From: Saccharofermentans sp.
GTDB taxonomy: Bacteria > Bacillota > Clostridia > Saccharofermentanales > Saccharofermentanaceae
Assembly (NCBI GenBank): GCA_024684815.1
Contig: JAIKWL010000001.1
Location: 1-48,028, forward strand
Length of the DNA stretch: 48,028 bases
Direction: 5' to 3'
Below are positions 15,854 to 23,328 of this stretch, in pieces (positions within the stretch are counted from its first letter, which is position 1; the number at the start of each line of letters is the position of its first letter). A program made the position numbers and the translations under genes. The notes below the pieces were generated by a model. That model worked only from the letters and a program-made list of their open reading frames with translations. It had not been told where the DNA came from and made no database searches.

Positions 15854-18800
15854 TCAAAAACCGCGAAGTCTCTTCCTGGACATCTTATCAGCATACATCC
15901 TGGAATCCGCTTCCAGGATCATGTCTTCTATATCTATATTCTTATCGATAACCCGTTCAGCGACACCAATGCTGGCACCGACTTCAAAAGGCTTGTCGGT
16001 CATAGCGGGATCGGCATCGGCTGCCATCTCTATCTCATTGCGGATATCCTTTATCGTTCCCTCAAGCTTCTTATCACCGATGACTGCGAAAGCGAATTCG
16101 TCACCGCCGTATCTGGCGGCCACACCGCGGTCCTTCACATACTTAAGGATCGCCCTGGCAAGAGTCTGTATCGCGATATCTCCGTTCTCATGTCCGTATG
16201 TATCGTTAATAGTCTTGAGCTTATCCATATCGATAGAGAACAGAGAAAGGATCTTGCCGGAATTCGCGGGAGTGTTAAGGAGTTTCTTGACGACTGCGAA
16301 AAAGCCTCTCCTGTTGTACAGACCTGTAAGGAAATCCTGTTCTGACAGGAGTTCATTCGCCCTGTTCTTGGTAATGAGTTTCTTGTTGTTATTTACTGCA
16401 TTGACGGCAGCATTTACAAAAAGACTGAACTCTTCAAATCTCTGCTGGGATCTCAATGTGATCAGATCATAGCCGTTGACCACATAACCGAATGATTCCG
16501 TGGAAGACCTGATCTGTCTGAACAACAGGACATTGATATTGCTGCCAGGTGCCATAATAAGATCATAGTCAGGGATCGGATATCTCATCCTGTAGAATTT
16601 CTGCGCATTGGTATACTTGTTCGATCTTCCGTGGAACACACTGTGGCAGCAATCATCCTCGTTAACACCGACAAAATAATAATGGCTCTTCCACACCCAA
16701 AGTGAATTTCTAAGATTATCAGCAGCTTCATCAAGATTATCCGTAGATGTCATCTGTGATACGAAGCGGCCCATCTCGAGCATATGTCTGAACGCATCCT
16801 GGTTCTCTTCGGCAAGCTGGTCCACTATCTCAGCCCACGGGAAATCAGAACTTGATTTACATCCGCAGGACTGCATGAACATTGACTTATAAGGGATCAG
16901 GAACGAATCGTCCGGAACCTTTTTCTGTTCCTCCCAATTCCTGATACGATATAAGATCTCCACAGCTATCTTGTGATAATCAAGCTCACATGTAGTTAAT
17001 ACAGGATCGTTATACTGTCCCTGCCAGATACCGTCAAAGCCCGTAACTATTACGTCTTCAGGAACTCTGATGTATTTTTTATGAAGGGAATCACAAACAC
17101 CTATTGCCATTGAATCGTTGGCGCAGATGATCGCATCCGGAAGATCGTATCCCTTATCCAGCAACTCATCCATTACGGTAAGCGCTCTTGCCTGCCAGAA
17201 ATCCCCGTAGAAGATATTAGCAGAACCGGGATCTATTCCGTGCTTTTCAAGGACTTTCTTAAAGATACCGATCCTTGCTTCCGAGAACGGATTATCCTTA
17301 AAGCCTGCAAACATATCAAGTCTTTTGGCACCGTGAACAGTAACGACATGTTCAACAACAGCCTCAAAACCGGTATCGTACTCAAAATCGGCATTGATGC
17401 AGCCTTTTACAGGGTACTGGAAAGTAATTACAGGAACGTCATTTTCATGCCCTATCGCAGTAAGTCTTTCAATGACTTCCCTGGTCTTTATCATCTCTCC
17501 GAAAATGATTATCGACGCAAGTTCCATCCTCGACAAAAGATCAGCAAACTCCATCTCAAGTTCAGCCTGTGTCGTATCAGGATTATTCACATTAAAGGTA
17601 AAGCTGGCAATAACATAATCCCTGTTTACTTCCGGAGTATTCAAAGCCCTTAAGAACAGGCTGAAGTTATCGGAATCATCCCATACTCCGCAGACAGCTA
17701 TAAGCTTACGTCTGTTCTCAATACCGATCCTCTTTTTGAGCAGGATATTACGGATATGGATCGATGCTTTTGAGATCGCACTGATAACAAAAATAACCGC
17801 CGCATCGTCATAGTCTTCCTGTACTTCAAAGAGCATCCTGTGCTTCTGCCAATGCCTGTCGAGCTTGATGGAATAAGGATCAGTGATATTTTCCTGATCC
17901 GGTCCCGAAGCAAAGATGCATTCTATGGAACGTTCCTCATCGGCTCTCCCGTCAAAGGAAAATTCATAAGCAGTGCCTTTTTTAAATGCAAATCCGCCCT
18001 GCAGGAGCCTTGTCTCACCGGATACACCCGAAATAAATGACGGAGTGATGATCAGTTCATCTTCCATGAAACTTACATTGGTATTCAGATCACCTTCGGC
18101 AACATAGAAAGCGTTGCTTGCCCCTGTACCTGATTTATTGTTATCTCCTGAGCTTTCGGGATCAAGTGACAATATCCTTGCAGGTCTTATTACATCCCTG
18201 TCATATGCTGCTTTCTGATAGTATCTTACGTAATCGACAAGAAGTTCCGCATCATTATCTTTCAGTTCAGCCTTAGCATCAGTGCTTTTTCCGGATCTAT
18301 CTCCTCCTGCAGAAACTCCGATGACCAGATGGAAAGGCTTGTCAAAAGGCGCGGGATAAGGCAGTTCAGTCTCACCGTTCCTGGAAAACCAGTAAGATGT
18401 TCTGTAATACTCTTTTCCGTCGCACGCGAAGATGATCTCATCCTGATCCCATTCACATGAAAAGACATGAAACTCGGAAGAAAAATCCAGATTGAGTTTA
18501 CGGTAGCTTCCGGAACGCTCTGTATAAGGATATCCGAAGACGACTCTCGATACGGCTTCATCAGTCTTGGCACCGGCGATCTCGACCATGTCGATCTGCC
18601 CGTGAAGAGGAAACTCTTTATAGTTTCCGGTTGCCTCATCGTAGGATGCGCTCGGCATCAGACGGATGTAACTTAATATACCGTTAGCCTTAGGGACTTT
18701 GATCCTCGCTACGATCTTGCCGTATGTATATTCTCTCTTGCCATATGTACTGACTCTTCCGGACAGATACCTCAGCTCTCCGGAACTGTTAGTAGTGATC

Positions 18801-18991
18801 TTAGGTCTAATGGAAAGACAACTGTCTCTTAATTCAATACATTTATCACCGCAGTACTCCTGACGCTCACCATCTATCCATCCGGGAGCGCGGCTTTCAG
18901 AACTCCAGATCGATCCGTTAATTGAATTACTGTTAAACTCGTCGGACCAGACTACATGGAATCCGTCCGGCAATGAGATCTTGGTACTCAT
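15854..18991 (-). CDS. GH16-like / LacI-type sensor / GGDEF fusion protein
   Basis: A 1045-residue protein without signal peptide or membrane helix. Order: GH16-like beta-sandwich (about 8-260; WSDEFN, FHVFSCEWDQDEI, PFDKPFHLVIGVSAGG, VDYVRYYQ), a carbohydrate-binding-module-like sandwich (about 290-425), a LacI-type ligand-binding domain (about 430-720; ICANDSMAIG, VTGFDG, ending SCGC), a linker, and a GGDEF domain (LTGLYNRRGF; GGDEF 962-966). The GH16 catalytic motif E-x-D-x-x-E reads QIDMVE (132-137): the nucleophile Glu is Gln, and the usual Trp-rich substrate strand is SYIRLMP. It is therefore probably a non-catalytic glycan-binding domain. The position of the cyclase I-site reads KDRG, not RxxD, so feedback inhibition is unlikely. 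No clear SD; the ATG lies 31 bases after the DUF47 gene. Confidence 0.85.
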   Translation of the reverse strand: MSTKISLPDGFHVVWSDEFNSNSINGSIWSSESRAPGWIDGERQEYCGDKCIELRDSCLSIRPKITTNSSGELRYLSGRVSTYGKREYTYGKIVARIKVPKANGILSYIRLMPSASYDEATGNYKEFPLHGQIDMVEIAGAKTDEAVSRVVFGYPYTERSGSYRKLNLDFSSEFHVFSCEWDQDEIIFACDGKEYYRTSYWFSRNGETELPYPAPFDKPFHLVIGVSAGGDRSGKSTDAKAELKDNDAELLVDYVRYYQKAAYDRDVIRPARILSLDPESSGDNNKSGTGASNAFYVAEGDLNTNVSFMEDELIITPSFISGVSGETRLLQGGFAFKKGTAYEFSFDGRADEERSIECIFASGPDQENITDPYSIKLDRHWQKHRMLFEVQEDYDDAAVIFVISAISKASIHIRNILLKKRIGIENRRKLIAVCGVWDDSDNFSLFLRALNTPEVNRDYVIASFTFNVNNPDTTQAELEMEFADLLSRMELASIIIFGEMIKTREVIERLTAIGHENDVPVITFQYPVKGCINADFEYDTGFEAVVEHVVTVHGAKRLDMFAGFKDNPFSEARIGIFKKVLEKHGIDPGSANIFYGDFWQARALTVMDELLDKGYDLPDAIICANDSMAIGVCDSLHKKYIRVPEDVIVTGFDGIWQGQYNDPVLTTCELDYHKIAVEILYRIRNWEEQKKVPDDSFLIPYKSMFMQSCGCKSSSDFPWAEIVDQLAEENQDAFRHMLEMGRFVSQMTSTDNLDEAADNLRNSLWVWKSHYYFVGVNEDDCCHSVFHGRSNKYTNAQKFYRMRYPIPDYDLIMAPGSNINVLLFRQIRSSTESFGYVVNGYDLITLRSQQRFEEFSLFVNAAVNAVNNNKKLITKNRANELLSEQDFLTGLYNRRGFFAVVKKLLNTPANSGKILSLFSIDMDKLKTINDTYGHENGDIAIQTLARAILKYVKDRGVAARYGGDEFAFAVIGDKKLEGTIKDIRNEIEMAADADPAMTDKPFEVGASIGVAERVIDKNIDIEDMILEADSRMYADKMSRKRLRGF

Positions 18992-19022: not shown

Positions 19023-19679
19023 TTATGTATCAGGTGCAAAAACATCCATAGCAGCATTGTTGCGCGCCATAATGTATTTATAGCAGTCATCGGCACTTAC
19101 TTCGAATGCCTTGAAGATATCCTTGACAGCATCGTAGATCGCCTTGCATCTGATGATATCAACTGTATCATGAGCCTGTGAGAAAAGTCCGAAGATGAGC
19201 ATGTCATACATCTTGTAGAAGTCTACTTTGAAAGCATCAAACTCATTGATAGCTCTGAGGAACAAATCCTTATTCTCGGGTTCATAAGTACGCATGATAT
19301 TTAAAAGATGCAGTTCTTTCTTAGCGCAGCCGGCAATGGCATTTACACTGGCCTTGATGCCCGGGCTGACGGTCCTTGTATTGTAACGGACGATCGTCAT
19401 TGAGAGCTCATCAACCATATCTACACAGTCTTCGATATGTCTTGCCATCTGGAAGATATTGATGCGCTTCTCGGGATCCTGTTCGACAGAATGCAGTCTG
19501 TCGGAAAAACCGTGGAAAACTATATCACCGTCATTTTCAAGTTTATTGATACGTCTTGAAATAGCTACTCTGTCTTCTATTTTTTCGAGCATCCCCAGGA
19601 GCTCGACACATTCTTCATTAAGGACCTCAGCCAATTTCTGAGCCTGATCAAATAGGAATTCGCGATCGTCTTGTGTCAT
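19023..19679 (-). CDS. DUF47 / PhoU-like protein
   Basis: All-helical protein of 218 residues resembling the DUF47 family, related to PhoU and usually encoded beside Pit-type phosphate transporters. Characteristic features are the long amphipathic helices and repeated E/D-xx-xD acidic faces (RRINKLENDGDIVFHGF, ARHIEDCVDMVDELS), which bind metal in PhoU. The frame is open to a GTG at 19697 that overlaps the SD; the ATG at 19679 lies eight bases after AGGAGG and is chosen. No phosphate transporter is next to it; instead it heads the operon with the two diguanylate cyclases. The link to phosphate is thus unproven. Confidence 0.8.
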   Translation of the reverse strand: MTQDDREFLFDQAQKLAEVLNEECVELLGMLEKIEDRVAISRRINKLENDGDIVFHGFSDRLHSVEQDPEKRINIFQMARHIEDCVDMVDELSMTIVRYNTRTVSPGIKASVNAIAGCAKKELHLLNIMRTYEPENKDLFLRAINEFDAFKVDFYKMYDMLIFGLFSQAHDTVDIIRCKAIYDAVKDIFKAFEVSADDCYKYIMARNNAAMDVFAPDT

Positions 19680-19710
19680 CAGACTAGCCTCCTGCACAAT
19701 TTTATAGCCT

Positions 19711-19837: not shown

Positions 19838-20317
19838 TCAGAGTGCGGAAACCTTTGTACCCATCTGATCGATGTCCTGATTCTCAACTACGAGATTTAC
19901 AGACTTAGGTGTGCAGACGAATGTTGTCTTAACAGGTGTAGGCTCAACTCTTCCGCCTAATGCATAAACACCGCCGCTGATGTAGTCAACTACACGCTGG
20001 TTCTTATCTGTATTTGTAAGATTGCAGATAACGATATGACCTTCACGGATATGATCGCAAACGATCTGGCTTGTTCTGATATCGAAAGGTGTAAGCATGA
20101 TCACTGTTGCATTGTGCTGCATAACAGGGGTTGTAACTGCGGGCTCTTGAACGAAGGTACGAGGTTCTTCGATAAAAGATTCCTCTGCGATAGGCTCCTG
20201 CTCGAATCCTTCTTCTTCAATGTAGCCCTCTTCTTCACCGTAATAATTCTCTTCTACGTCTTCCTCTACAGGTGAGAACATGCTTCCGAAGAAATTCTTA
20301 ACGTTAAAAGTGCCCAT
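19838..20317 (-). CDS. sepF: Cell division protein SepF
   Basis: FtsZ-binding, membrane-associated division protein. A short N-terminal amphipathic segment (VKNFFGSMF) fits the membrane anchor; a long acidic Glu/Tyr linker follows (about residues 17-55); the SepF core lies in the C-terminal half (MLTPFDIRTSQIVCDHIR, VICNLTNTDKNQRVVDYISGGVYALGG). Length 159 residues is normal. The longest frame begins at 20356, but AAGGAGG lies immediately upstream of the ATG at 20317, which is used. It has its own promoter and terminator, downstream of the yggS gene as in the ylm division cluster. Confidence 0.95.
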   Translation of the reverse strand: MGTFNVKNFFGSMFSPVEEDVEENYYGEEEGYIEEEGFEQEPIAEESFIEEPRTFVQEPAVTTPVMQHNATVIMLTPFDIRTSQIVCDHIREGHIVICNLTNTDKNQRVVDYISGGVYALGGRVEPTPVKTTFVCTPKSVNLVVENQDIDQMGTKVSAL

Positions 20318-20373
20318 TTGTTTTTCCTCCTTAAAAAATCGCCCGACCAAGGACATTCATATAACATAATGGG

Positions 20374-20402
20374 ATATTAACGAACTTTGACTTTTACTTC
20401 AA
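20374..20402 (-). promoter_or_regulatory. Promoter of sepF
   Basis: Minus-strand TTGAAG (20397-20402), 17 bases, TAATAT (20374-20379), 57 bases before the sepF ATG. Confidence 0.6.
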
Positions 20403-20434
20403 TAAATTTGGGCAATATGACATAAGATGGTAAC

Positions 20435-20456
20435 GTAACACGGGTTTTTATTACAA
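20435..20456. promoter_or_regulatory. Operator-like dyad upstream of sepF
   Basis: GTAACACG, six bases, TATTACAA. The same two blocks, with a five-base gap, occur in the PAP2 promoter at 12843-12863. Each copy contains an imperfect palindrome GTAA(C/T)A facing TATTAC. Further TGTAAC or GTTACA words lie on both sides here (20431, 20460-20466). Confidence 0.4.
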
Positions 20457-20483
20457 AATGTAACAAAAATCAACCGAACAATG

Positions 20484-21221
20484 TTACACAGGCTTATATT
20501 GAGAGCGGTCTCCGAATATTGCAGTGCCTATACGGATGTGCGTTGCACCTTCATATATAGCGCTCTTATAGTCCTGACTCATACCCATGGAAAGGACCTT
20601 CCAGCTCTCAAGTCCCGTATATTCTTTAAGGTCTTCATATATTACTCTTGTCTTCGCAAAAACCTCTCTTGCCTGACCTTCGTAAGTCTCTATGGGAGCC
20701 ATCGTCATAAGGCCGCAGATTTTAATCGAGGGCATGTCTATGATCTTATCTATAGCAGGCTTTAACTCATGAGGTGCAAAGCCGTGCTTGCTCTCTTCTC
20801 CCGACACGTTTGCCTGTAAAAGAATGTTGGAAGTAACATTGTTACTTGCGGATCTTTTGGAGATCTCCTCAGCAAGTTCAATACTGTTTACAGAGTGTAT
20901 AAGAGATGTTTTTCCTATAATATATTTAACCTTATTCTTCTGTAACGTTCCTATTAGATGCCAGTTTGCATCGATATCCAGAGCAGAGAATCTCTCGACC
21001 TTCGGGACGAGTTCCTGGACGCGGTTTTCCCCAAGATTGGAAAGTCCGCTCAAAGCTGCAGCTTCGGCATATTCAACGGGGAACACTTTTGTAACTCCAA
21101 TGAGAGTAACAGATCCCTTAGTTCTTCCTGACAGGGCAACCGCTTCATCTATTGATTCCCGGACAGCAATTATGTTGTCCGATATCCTTTTTTTCAACTG
21201 CTCATCAAAATCGTATTCCAT
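20484..21221 (-). CDS. yggS: PLP homeostasis protein YggS family
   Basis: Pyridoxal-phosphate-binding protein of the YggS/PROSC family, an alanine-racemase-like barrel that buffers PLP and has no known enzymatic reaction. The PLP lysine is Lys45 in LIGVTKVFP; HLIGTLQKNK, NSIELAEEI, GLMTMAP and the closing SMGMSQDY and HIRIGTAIFG motifs are all present. The frame is open to 21335, within the preceding gene; the ATG at 21221, one base after the stop of the HlyD-like gene, with AAGG upstream, gives 245 residues and the normal family start. It sits beside sepF, the common order in Firmicutes. Confidence 0.95.
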   Translation of the reverse strand: MEYDFDEQLKKRISDNIIAVRESIDEAVALSGRTKGSVTLIGVTKVFPVEYAEAAALSGLSNLGENRVQELVPKVERFSALDIDANWHLIGTLQKNKVKYIIGKTSLIHSVNSIELAEEISKRSASNNVTSNILLQANVSGEESKHGFAPHELKPAIDKIIDMPSIKICGLMTMAPIETYEGQAREVFAKTRVIYEDLKEYTGLESWKVLSMGMSQDYKSAIYEGATHIRIGTAIFGDRSQYKPV

Positions 21222-21222
21222 A

Positions 21223-23328
21223 TCAGTCGACCTTATCTCCGGGCTTAACAGTCTTAGGGTTAGTAATAATAACTGTATCAAGATTAGGTACAGATGAATT
21301 GCCCACCTGGTCGATGATCGCAAACTCTCTGTCATTATCCAGAACTATTACTCTTACTTCTTCAACGAAACCCTGGTTATTGGTATATACGGATGCCATT
21401 CCCGAATATTCGGATACGCTGATCTTCTCGCATGTCATACCAAGACCTGTGGCAGAATCGACAAAAGATGCGATATAGCCTTCAGTATAAAGCCTGTCTA
21501 GTTTTTTCAGGTTTGCATAATCGTTTGGAGTCGAGAATGCAACTATCGTGCCGCCGTTATCCAGGAATTCGGTATGGACAACGGTACACCCGGGCACATT
21601 CGTTTTCTGCTGCTCGACGACATTGCCTTCATCATCTATCTTCTCATTAGGAAGGATATTGATATTAAATATCGAGTCGTTTGCAAAAGTGTCGGTACCG
21701 ACAGCCGCACCCGGCGCAAAATAGATGCAGAATGAAGGATTGCCCTTAGGCGCATAATCCACATTGACAAGGCTCGGAACAGAAACCCTCATACCGTCAG
21801 TCTCTGTGATAACGATCTCGATGTCGACCGTTCTCAAGTCGAGAAGATCTTCGACATAACGTGAGGTCTCAAAAGTAATGAGAGTGCCCGAAGCATCACT
21901 TTCGCAGCGGACAACCTTACAGTTATCAATGGAGATACCTTCAGTACGCACGTTGATGTCATGTGTCGTGCCTTCCTTAAAATCTGAAGCAGCCGCATCA
22001 TTAGCTGACAGATATACAGTCAGATACTGGCTCTCATTCTGAGCGATCCTTACTGCCGAAGTATCGGCCTTAACGCTAAGATCGGAAGTAATAGCACCGA
22101 CTGAATTATTCAGATAGCCTTTGATCTCAGCAGCAGGCATTGAAAGGAATGTATCGTAATCAAGTTCCTGCTCCTTACCGTCGAGTCTGAAAGATACGAT
22201 ACCCGGTCTGTGAGCTTCTATTACCGTTGCATACTTCTCAACTTCGGCTTCGTATACTTTCTCATCGCTTCTTAAGGTAACTATTCTTGCATCATCGAAA
22301 TCGATCTTGCTCATCTCATCTTCGCGCTCGTCAAGGATAACATTTACCGAAGAACTGTATGACGACAAATTGTTGAGATTTCCGCTCATCGAATCAAATC
22401 TTACGGAATCTAAGATAGCGGAAAGGTTCTTGTTATAGTTCCTGTAGATCGTATCAGCCTCGGCAACGCCGCCTGCAAAGATCAGTTCCTGCTGGACATC
22501 AGATATCTGGGACTGGACATTACGGAGATCGGTGACGACAGACTTCATATTGTCAGGCACGACGATCGCTATCTCCTGTCCCTTTGCAACTCGTGAACCT
22601 TCTGTTATCTGTGTAACAAGTTCTCCGGTCTGCTCGCTGTTTATAGTATCCTCATCTCTTACGATCAATGCTTTTGCACCTATGGTGTGTTCAACGGCAC
22701 CTGTCGTAACGAACGAGAAGTTAGGTTTCTCGGCGATATAGTCATATAAGTGATGAACAACGAAAACAAGCACGAGAAGTGCAGCAGCGACAGCAACTGC
22801 TCCGAGCACGCCGTTCCTTATAGCGCGGCTCTCGGCGCTCTTTTGCGAAGGATTCTTGCGCTTATACTCATTCTTCTCGATCTTTTCCTGCTCTTTAAGC
22901 TTAGCCTGTTCCCTGCGCTTTTTCTGCTCTGCTATCTTCGCCTGTTCTTTTTCTTTTGCGCGTTCAGCAGAAGACACGGGCTTTTTTGCAGAAGAAGGAG
23001 CGGACTTCACGGGGGATTTTGCAGCAGGCACCTTTGATGTCTTGGGAGCAGTCTTTATATCTTTCTTGTTCTCAGATGAAGAAGTGCTCAAAGGATCCAT
23101 CTGAGGAATGATACTCTTCTGGTGGTCAGCACCTGATTTTACGGAAGAGATATCCTTACCGGACTTTTGGACGGGTTTTCCGGCAGGCTTGACAGGCGCC
23201 TTTTTCCCGTCAGGCTTAACGTTCCTGTTGCCGGATCTTTTTGCCGGATCGCCAGGCTTTGCATTCGTCTTTTTCCTGTTGGCATTTCCGCCCTGAGGAC
23301 TGTTATACCATTGTTTTCCGTCTGCCAT
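21223..23328 (-). CDS. HlyD-like membrane protein with long basic cytosolic tail
   Basis: 701 residues. The first 170 are Lys/Ala/Pro/Glu-rich, low complexity and probably cytosolic; they include a charged helix (KEKEQAKIAEQKKRREQ). One membrane helix follows (about 173-196, GVLGAVAVAAALLVLVFVV). The extracellular part has a barrel-sandwich start (GAKALIVRDEDTI, GSRVAKGQEIAIV) like HlyD/RND adaptor proteins, then a helical hairpin and beta-rich domains. No partner ABC or RND transporter is adjacent. Proteins of this layout occur beside yggS and sepF in Clostridia, so a role in envelope or division is possible but not established. Start ATG follows a weak GGGGG site five bases after the upstream stop. 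Confidence 0.75.
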   Translation of the reverse strand: MADGKQWYNSPQGGNANRKKTNAKPGDPAKRSGNRNVKPDGKKAPVKPAGKPVQKSGKDISSVKSGADHQKSIIPQMDPLSTSSSENKKDIKTAPKTSKVPAAKSPVKSAPSSAKKPVSSAERAKEKEQAKIAEQKKRREQAKLKEQEKIEKNEYKRKNPSQKSAESRAIRNGVLGAVAVAAALLVLVFVVHHLYDYIAEKPNFSFVTTGAVEHTIGAKALIVRDEDTINSEQTGELVTQITEGSRVAKGQEIAIVVPDNMKSVVTDLRNVQSQISDVQQELIFAGGVAEADTIYRNYNKNLSAILDSVRFDSMSGNLNNLSSYSSSVNVILDEREDEMSKIDFDDARIVTLRSDEKVYEAEVEKYATVIEAHRPGIVSFRLDGKEQELDYDTFLSMPAAEIKGYLNNSVGAITSDLSVKADTSAVRIAQNESQYLTVYLSANDAAASDFKEGTTHDINVRTEGISIDNCKVVRCESDASGTLITFETSRYVEDLLDLRTVDIEIVITETDGMRVSVPSLVNVDYAPKGNPSFCIYFAPGAAVGTDTFANDSIFNINILPNEKIDDEGNVVEQQKTNVPGCTVVHTEFLDNGGTIVAFSTPNDYANLKKLDRLYTEGYIASFVDSATGLGMTCEKISVSEYSGMASVYTNNQGFVEEVRVIVLDNDREFAIIDQVGNSSVPNLDTVIITNPKTVKPGDKVD

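Follow-up and report, generated by a model that had tools for sequence, protein, structure and literature searches.

In this study, we describe a gene of a 48,028-nucleotide stretch of DNA (the window; contig JAIKWL010000001.1, assembly GCA_024684815.1, Saccharofermentans sp.) that encodes a single chain of 1045 amino acids, in which a GH16 domain without its catalytic nucleophile and a CBM4_9-like beta-sandwich are followed by a LacI-type periplasmic-binding protein (PBP) fold, a GAF-like region and a GGDEF domain (Table 1). The predicted domains support the assignment of the protein as a cytosolic diguanylate cyclase of the LacI type with an N-terminal GH16 domain, and synthesis of cyclic di-GMP (c-di-GMP) is predicted from the intact GGDEF motif. 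Judged from sequence, the cyclase has probably captured a GH16-CBM4_9 glucanase that no longer cuts and uses it as its input module.

In a phmmer search against PDB sequences, residues 10-259 aligned with the T. maritima laminarinase 3azx (E = 1.5e-25), and no gap interrupts the motif, GQIDMVE of the window protein lying under GEIDIME of 3azx. Thus, Gln132 stands at the position of the nucleophile glutamate. Structure prediction of residues 1-430, which the preliminary description of this DNA had named as a check, upheld the GH16 fold, 3azx being the top Foldseek match with a TM score of 0.81 by target length. The same description had recognized QIDMVE as a GH16 motif with glutamine for the nucleophile and had held that the aromatic substrate strand is replaced by SYIRLMP. 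The alignment to 3azx bears out the first point; the free GH16 copy of the same genome, which has PAIWMMP at the position of SYIRLMP, bears out the second. Arg110 in this strand matches the platform tryptophan W116 of 3azx, as numbered by counting on the phmmer alignment. The window protein, with its triad Q132-D134-E137, therefore lacks both the two-glutamate signature E-x-D-x(x)-E and the -1 platform tryptophan of active GH16 enzymes. A check of Gln132 across homologues had also been suggested; Gln132, Arg110 and Phe127 were invariant in all 24 orthologues.

The loss of catalytic residues distinguishes fused from free GH16 domains. In the genus of the window (g1), 49 distinct fused domains, one per genome, were found in 49 of 85 genomes; this is a lower bound, since only part of the GH16 matches was listed. 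The residues at positions 132, 134 and 137 are QDE in 17 of them, QNE and EDE in 5 each, SDV in 4, RTT, SDT and DGE in 2 each, and QDN, RIT, QDG, EDN, SDS, SDA, EDR, SNE, CNE, SND, TDE and QDC in one each. The E-D-E triad is broken in 44 and the nucleophile glutamate is missing in 42, and every one of the 39 fusions that bear a CBM has lost one or both of the catalytic glutamates. In contrast, all 81 free GH16 domains, L051 included, have EDE (79 open reading frames (ORFs) at 77 loci; one protein contributes three repeat domains, in which the motif has the shorter form ExDxE). A paired control, in which one free copy was taken from each of 20 genomes with a fused copy, gave EDE in 20 of 20. 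Five of these duplicate sequences already among the 81, so that the triad is intact in 96 of 96 distinct free domains. The lipobox pattern occurs in 19 of the 20 paired free copies and, judged by eye, nearly in the twentieth (L251); none of 23 fused orthologues shows the pattern.

Fisher's test on the broken triad in fused versus free domains gave 6e-32; because the rows are related by descent, the tree weighs more than this value. The tree was a quick one, built without the motif columns, with weak forks and an outgroup of our own choice. On it the fused rows fall on one side of a branch with a support of 77, which is not strong, and the fusion more probably arose once. Without rooting, at least five changes are needed for the nucleophile and three for the triad. 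On the rooted tree without regain there were about eight losses of the nucleophile, six of the acid/base and four of the triad as a whole, the count of eight depending on the weak forks and the chosen outgroup.

A decaying remnant without function could also show the diverse substitutions that are seen at the catalytic sites. This explanation is very improbable, because the replacement residues are invariant in the 24 orthologues and the GH16 domain evolves at a rate near that of the PBP domain. The median ratios of non-synonymous to synonymous substitution (dN/dS; 12 closest, overlapping orthologue pairs) were 0.069 for GH16, 0.056 for the CBM, 0.065 for the PBP, 0.021 for the GAF-like region and 0.029 for GGDEF. 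The GH16-CBM match is free of stops in all 24 orthologues, and the GGDEF motif is intact in the 45 fused ORFs that reach it, the four others ending at a locus edge. Since catalysis is gone while the fold is retained under constraint, the GH16 domain is likely to be an input or docking module.

The other domains were assigned as follows. The plus-strand frame over 15854-18991 contains many stops and the coding strand is the minus strand, on which three open codons precede the ATG start. Pfam matched GH16 (PF00722) at residues 75-240 (E = 7.7e-15; 55.2 bits, cut-off 22), Peripla_BP_3 at 553-681 (E = 1.5e-16; 61.3 bits, cut-off 26.5) and GGDEF at 885-1039 (E = 4e-30, above the cut-off). No DNA-binding helix-turn-helix is among the six Pfam families listed for the five window proteins scanned. 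The sandwich is present in the AlphaFold2 model of residues 1-430 (mean predicted local distance difference test, pLDDT, 79.6; 49-row alignment); the isolated stretch scored 13 bits (E = 0.14) with CBM_4_9 (PF02018), which is under the cut-off. Among five CBM-bearing relatives, CBM_4_9 is over the cut-off in three (L033, L034 and the free L052) and under it in L030 and L027; it is also over in L217. The full-length model was built from 10 alignment rows with a pLDDT of 74.9 and a predicted template modelling score of 0.53, so its relative domain placement is not trustworthy. The Foldseek matches of this model include LacI-family regulators as well as sensor-GGDEF proteins, 4zmu and 5llx among them. 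The GAF-like label for residues ~753-841, a region with no Pfam GAF match, is a reading of strand order. The highest hydropathy over 19 residues is 1.48, and an export signal is absent. Pfam, the model, hydropathy and the lipobox pattern thus agree with the single chain without export signal of the preliminary description, to which we add the minus strand, the GAF-like region and the helix at 846-883 ahead of GGDEF.

What the module holds is a separate question, and the observations that weigh against a glycan-reading glucanase are given in this and the following two paragraphs. Cleft contacts were taken from two structural papers (PMC5595797, PMC4606783), whose accessible text also gives the platform role of the -1 subsite tryptophan, and were transferred through the 3azx alignment. 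At the position of residue 110, the 81 free domains have tryptophan (78) or phenylalanine (3); the residue is charged in all 39 CBM-bearing fusions (R 33, K 3, E 3), and in the ten CBM-less fusions it is S in four, W in two and L, Q, R or K in one each. Trp127, Trp232 and Asn40 are each present in 81 of 81 free domains; in the 24 orthologues, position 127 is phenylalanine, position 232 has no tryptophan and Asn40 is kept in four. These changes make ordinary beta-glucan binding doubtful. An inactive mycobacterial GH16 protein without some of the subsite residues did not bind laminarin, according to the accessible part of PMC4606783. Three other residues of the window protein are shared with free domains (Leu106 with 33 of the 81, Arg79 with 33 and Phe152 with 20) and hence give no sign of remodelling; Leu106, at the second platform position, is uninformative for this reason. 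In the S/EDN group of fusions, all nine members keep Trp127, Asn40 and Arg79; some subsites may therefore persist there. From the sequence, a laminari-oligosaccharide is a possible ligand of the window protein and is not favoured. Thus, of the earlier proposal that a dead glycosidase was recruited as a cyclase module reading laminari- or mixed-linkage oligosaccharides, the recruitment is supported, with catalysis lost by sequence and the domain kept under selection, and the ligand is not supported, in view of the changed cleft residues.

The altered positions, fixed in free enzymes, would also be expected if GH16-CBM were a structural or protein-docking module for dimerization, localization or a partner, with the LacI-type and GAF-like parts as the real sensor. 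This is the chief alternative and we regard it as possible, if rather unlikely. It draws on the chassis to which the GH16-CBM part is joined. We read 13 LacI-mid-GGDEF relatives from the same genus with at least 38% identity. Eight begin with Barstar (L220-L222 and L224-L228; for example L220:1017-3194, minus strand), three are of a 776-amino-acid type, one has CBM_4_9 alone and one has no N-terminal domain. Barstar is a protein-binding, ribonuclease-inhibitor fold; it was confirmed by Pfam (PF01337) in two relatives (E = 8.4e-18 and 1.1e-18) and assigned in the other six from the look of the sequence and the tree. Barstar or other domains in the place of GH16 fit a docking role, as does the lack of GH16 in the LacI-GGDEF protein encoded downstream. 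Against docking, the nine cleft positions derived from the literature have a mean modal identity of 0.90 in the 24 orthologues versus 0.81 for all positions, a small surplus, and CBM_4_9 is retained alone in one relative (L217:848-3247, plus strand), whose genome (G047) also encodes a GH16-LacI-GGDEF protein (L047) with the triad QDC. The 776-amino-acid type (L218, L219 and L223; 776-777 residues) begins with a domain of some 150 residues, for which two stretches tested gave no Pfam match. On the chassis tree, which is quick and has long branches, Barstar and the 776-amino-acid type each form one clade, and GH16-CBM proteins are found on several branches; this arrangement is the pattern expected if GH16 came early and was later replaced. 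Apart from these, a LacI-type PBP is joined to GGDEF-EAL in L229:2-3727 and to EAL in L230:1-2676 (both minus strand), so that PBP sensors of g1 are also found on phosphodiesterase domains.

The third group of contrary observations concerns activity, gene context and output. The preliminary description had taken an intact motif in the same architecture as the mark of an enzyme. The motif is intact in 0 of 39 fusions of that architecture, and E-D-E is intact in 5 of 49 overall, all within the ten shorter CBM-less GH16-LacI-GGDEF fusions. The five are read as relics that predate catalytic loss, and an intact motif can evidently occur in such a fusion. One of them, L045:3812-6469 (minus strand), has both E-D-E and the platform tryptophan and is a possible cytosolic active enzyme-cyclase or a putative ancestral state. 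An enzyme working by an unusual route, such as another nucleophile or a transglycosylase reaction, may draw on these five fusions and on the retention of Asp134 in 19 and Glu137 in 22 of the 24 orthologues. We consider it improbable, because Gln, Ser, Arg, Asp, Cys or Thr occupies the nucleophile site, Asp134 and Glu137 are lost in some orthologues, and the laminarinase nucleophile mutant E269S is called inactive and yet binds laminarin in the accessible text of PMC4606783. The Foldseek matches listed include structures of laminarinase mutants with E-to-S and E-to-A changes. By eye, no carbohydrate-active enzyme, sugar transporter or glycan-utilization gene lies beside the fusion among the window ORFs. 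As to output, PilZ gave no match in the genome of the window, which is 76% complete, and controls were detected.

We nevertheless prefer the reading as a cyclase with a captured glucanase module, for which the following course may be proposed. An intact-triad GH16-CBM ancestor, minus its export signal, would have been fused to the LacI-type PBP - GAF-like - GGDEF chassis. Repeated loss of catalytic residues would have followed, the fold and sequence remaining under strong selection, in an order of events taken from the quick tree. The remodelled GH16/CBM face may hold its ligand, probably a glycan or glycan-like, without hydrolysis. The GH16/CBM, PBP and GAF-like parts together would set the geometry of the signalling-helix dimer and hence the GGDEF output. 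The resulting c-di-GMP would act on effectors such as the MshEN domain of this genome. Ligand binding, the glycan nature of the ligand, the direction of the signal and the output are what we infer here. It is an even call whether g1, a genus of gut Clostridia, possesses a wider receptor family in which dead GH16 plus CBM, CBM alone, Barstar and other domains share one LacI-GAF-GGDEF chassis, the pseudo-glucanase reading an internal glycan or a partner to set c-di-GMP, and the relatives showing the steps from intact to dead after fusion.

The genome matches 21 GGDEF, 7 EAL and 1 MshEN domains. MshEN is of the pilus or secretion ATPase type. A search for the c-di-GMP-I riboswitch gave no match, and the control was likewise silent, so the result is uninformative. 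Around the fusion, a second LacI-GGDEF gene lies 30 bases downstream and a PhoU-like gene (PF01865, weak match, E = 0.048) 31 bases upstream. Each adjoins the fusion in 7 of 16 loci checked; the LacI-GGDEF gene is about 3 kb away in two more, L089 and L104, of the S/EDN group. The order yggS-like - sepF - PhoU-like - fusion - LacI-GGDEF was seen in five orthologue loci and in L065; L034 has only the PhoU-like and LacI-GGDEF genes as flanks, and in the remaining seven loci the conserved order is not visible within the stretch examined. L065 and L034 are likely to be true orthologues despite 32-35% GH16 identity, because they are of the R-x-T type. Gene context gives no hint of the ligand, because genes of division and signalling types make up the conserved neighbourhood. 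The pair of LacI-GGDEF and fusion genes, conserved in part of the loci, could act as a heterodimer or as opposed sensors. Further upstream (19838-21335, minus strand), sepF, assigned by Pfam, lies beside a yggS-type gene recognized by eye, in a cluster of the cell-division type.

Table 1. Positions in the window of the fusion gene, its domains and motifs, and the adjoining genes
Feature	Residues	Positions	Strand	Evidence
Whole gene: GH16 - CBM4_9-like - LacI-type PBP - GAF-like - signalling helix - GGDEF	1-1045	15854-18991	-	
GH16 jelly-roll domain	11-260	18212-18961	-	Pfam, phmmer, AlphaFold2, Foldseek
Degenerate catalytic motif QIDMVE (Gln132 for nucleophile Glu)	132-137	18581-18598	-	Alignments
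SYIRLMP, -1 subsite strand (Arg110 for platform Trp)	107-113	18653-18673	-	Alignments
CBM4_9-like beta-sandwich	296-421	17729-18106	-	Model; relatives; below Pfam cut-off
LacI-type periplasmic-binding fold	429-705	16877-17707	-	Pfam, model
Helix and GAF-like region	719-748 and 753-841	16469-16837	-	Strand/helix order in model; Foldseek
Long signalling helix, running into GGDEF	846-883	16343-16456	-	Model
GGDEF diguanylate cyclase domain (motif 962-966 intact)	885-1043	15863-16339	-	Pfam
Second LacI-GGDEF protein, 766 amino acids		13523-15823	-	Pfam
PhoU-like gene		19023-19697	-	PF01865, weak

An artefact of assembly or frame might be suspected of a draft genome in 85 contigs. This explanation is already refuted, since the same architecture occurs in 23 further genomes with 66-81% GH16 identity, in separately named metagenome-assembled genomes (MAGs), and the gene order is conserved in five that were checked. 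In a search of the family (115 genomes), 24 g1 genomes, the present one included, matched residues 1-423 at 65-100% identity, with ORFs of 1038-1149 amino acids. At least five orthologues are in separately named MAGs, from goat omasum, sheep jejunum, horse faeces and two others, the horse-faeces MAG carrying the label Saccharofermentans; these came from a scan of named genomes with two peptide patterns, which kept 80 of 538 confirmed loci. More distant fusions have 30-41% GH16 identity in the subset measured and are about 1030-1080 amino acids long with the CBM and about 871-889 without it; L036 and L039 were assigned a CBM by alignment to residues 10-420 and not by the short CBM query, and five short fusions were recovered by the chassis search only. 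In the other four genera of the family (30 genomes), GH16 frames reached at most 558 amino acids among the matches listed. A search of 188 genomes of the order with a GH16-CBM profile found long fused frames only in g1, and a search of 391 genomes of the class with the chassis, scoring up to four candidates per genome, found no identity above 35% outside the family, both among the matches listed. The fusion is thus likely to be restricted to g1.

To our knowledge, no ligand has been assigned to most c-di-GMP enzymes. Klotho is a mammalian pseudoglycosidase co-receptor. Dead glycoside hydrolase domains that serve as regulators or receptors are already known, as the accessible texts describe for RsgI6 and insect GH16-type proteins. 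The anti-sigma factor RsgI6 of Clostridium thermocellum has a GH10 domain of very low activity that retains binding (PMC4711584). It resembles the window protein in that a hydrolase domain of very low activity provides a regulator with its sensing part, in an organism that degrades plant polysaccharides, whereas its GH10 domain is extracellular and linked through the membrane to the anti-sigma factor, and here a cytosolic GH16 domain is joined to GGDEF. The insect beta-glucan recognition proteins, or GNBPs, are GH16 relatives, one clade of which is without the catalytic glutamates and serves recognition and not digestion; they are secreted animal immunity proteins without GGDEF, whereas the window protein is bacterial and predicted to be intracellular, and its losses are separate (PMC4122206). 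Rv0315 has a GH16 fold with lost subsite residues and no detectable hydrolysis, but keeps both glutamates and a signal peptide and is described in the accessible text as a single GH16 domain (PMC4606783).

Among c-di-GMP enzymes, those of the LacI/Peripla_BP type in the census of PMC8846402 share the LacI-type PBP, as does the gene downstream of the fusion, but lack the GH16/CBM module; the main text of the census, as far as it was accessible, does not contain the word glycoside or the word hydrolase. A GH126-GGDEF protein of Bacillus velezensis likewise unites a glycoside hydrolase domain with one of the GGDEF type in a single polypeptide. It is, in the available text, one protein with a degenerate GGDEF motif (SAERF), whereas the present fusions, from at least 49 genomes, have a GH16 domain that appears dead and an intact GGDEF (PMC7479077). 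A HAMP-GGDEF protein claimed to have glucosidase activity (PMC5457731) was set aside, GH16 being unnamed in the accessible part of that paper. No GH16-GGDEF fusion is reported in the accessible part of PMC6851124. The literature searched, which includes few subscription journals, yielded no description of a GH16-GGDEF receptor, in agreement with the earlier statement that no system of this type is described, and nothing on Saccharofermentans together with c-di-GMP.

In conclusion, one fused lineage in which the glucanase ranges from intact to dead provides a route to ask how an enzyme becomes a receptor, and the free copies in the same genomes, intact by sequence, serve as controls. If the module binds a protein instead of a glycan, it would be an example of a dead carbohydrate-active enzyme used as a docking part. 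If a glycan is bound, the fusion would provide a direct and testable link by which polysaccharide breakdown in rumen and gut Clostridia is tied to the control of a second messenger, as well as a sensor module ready for use.

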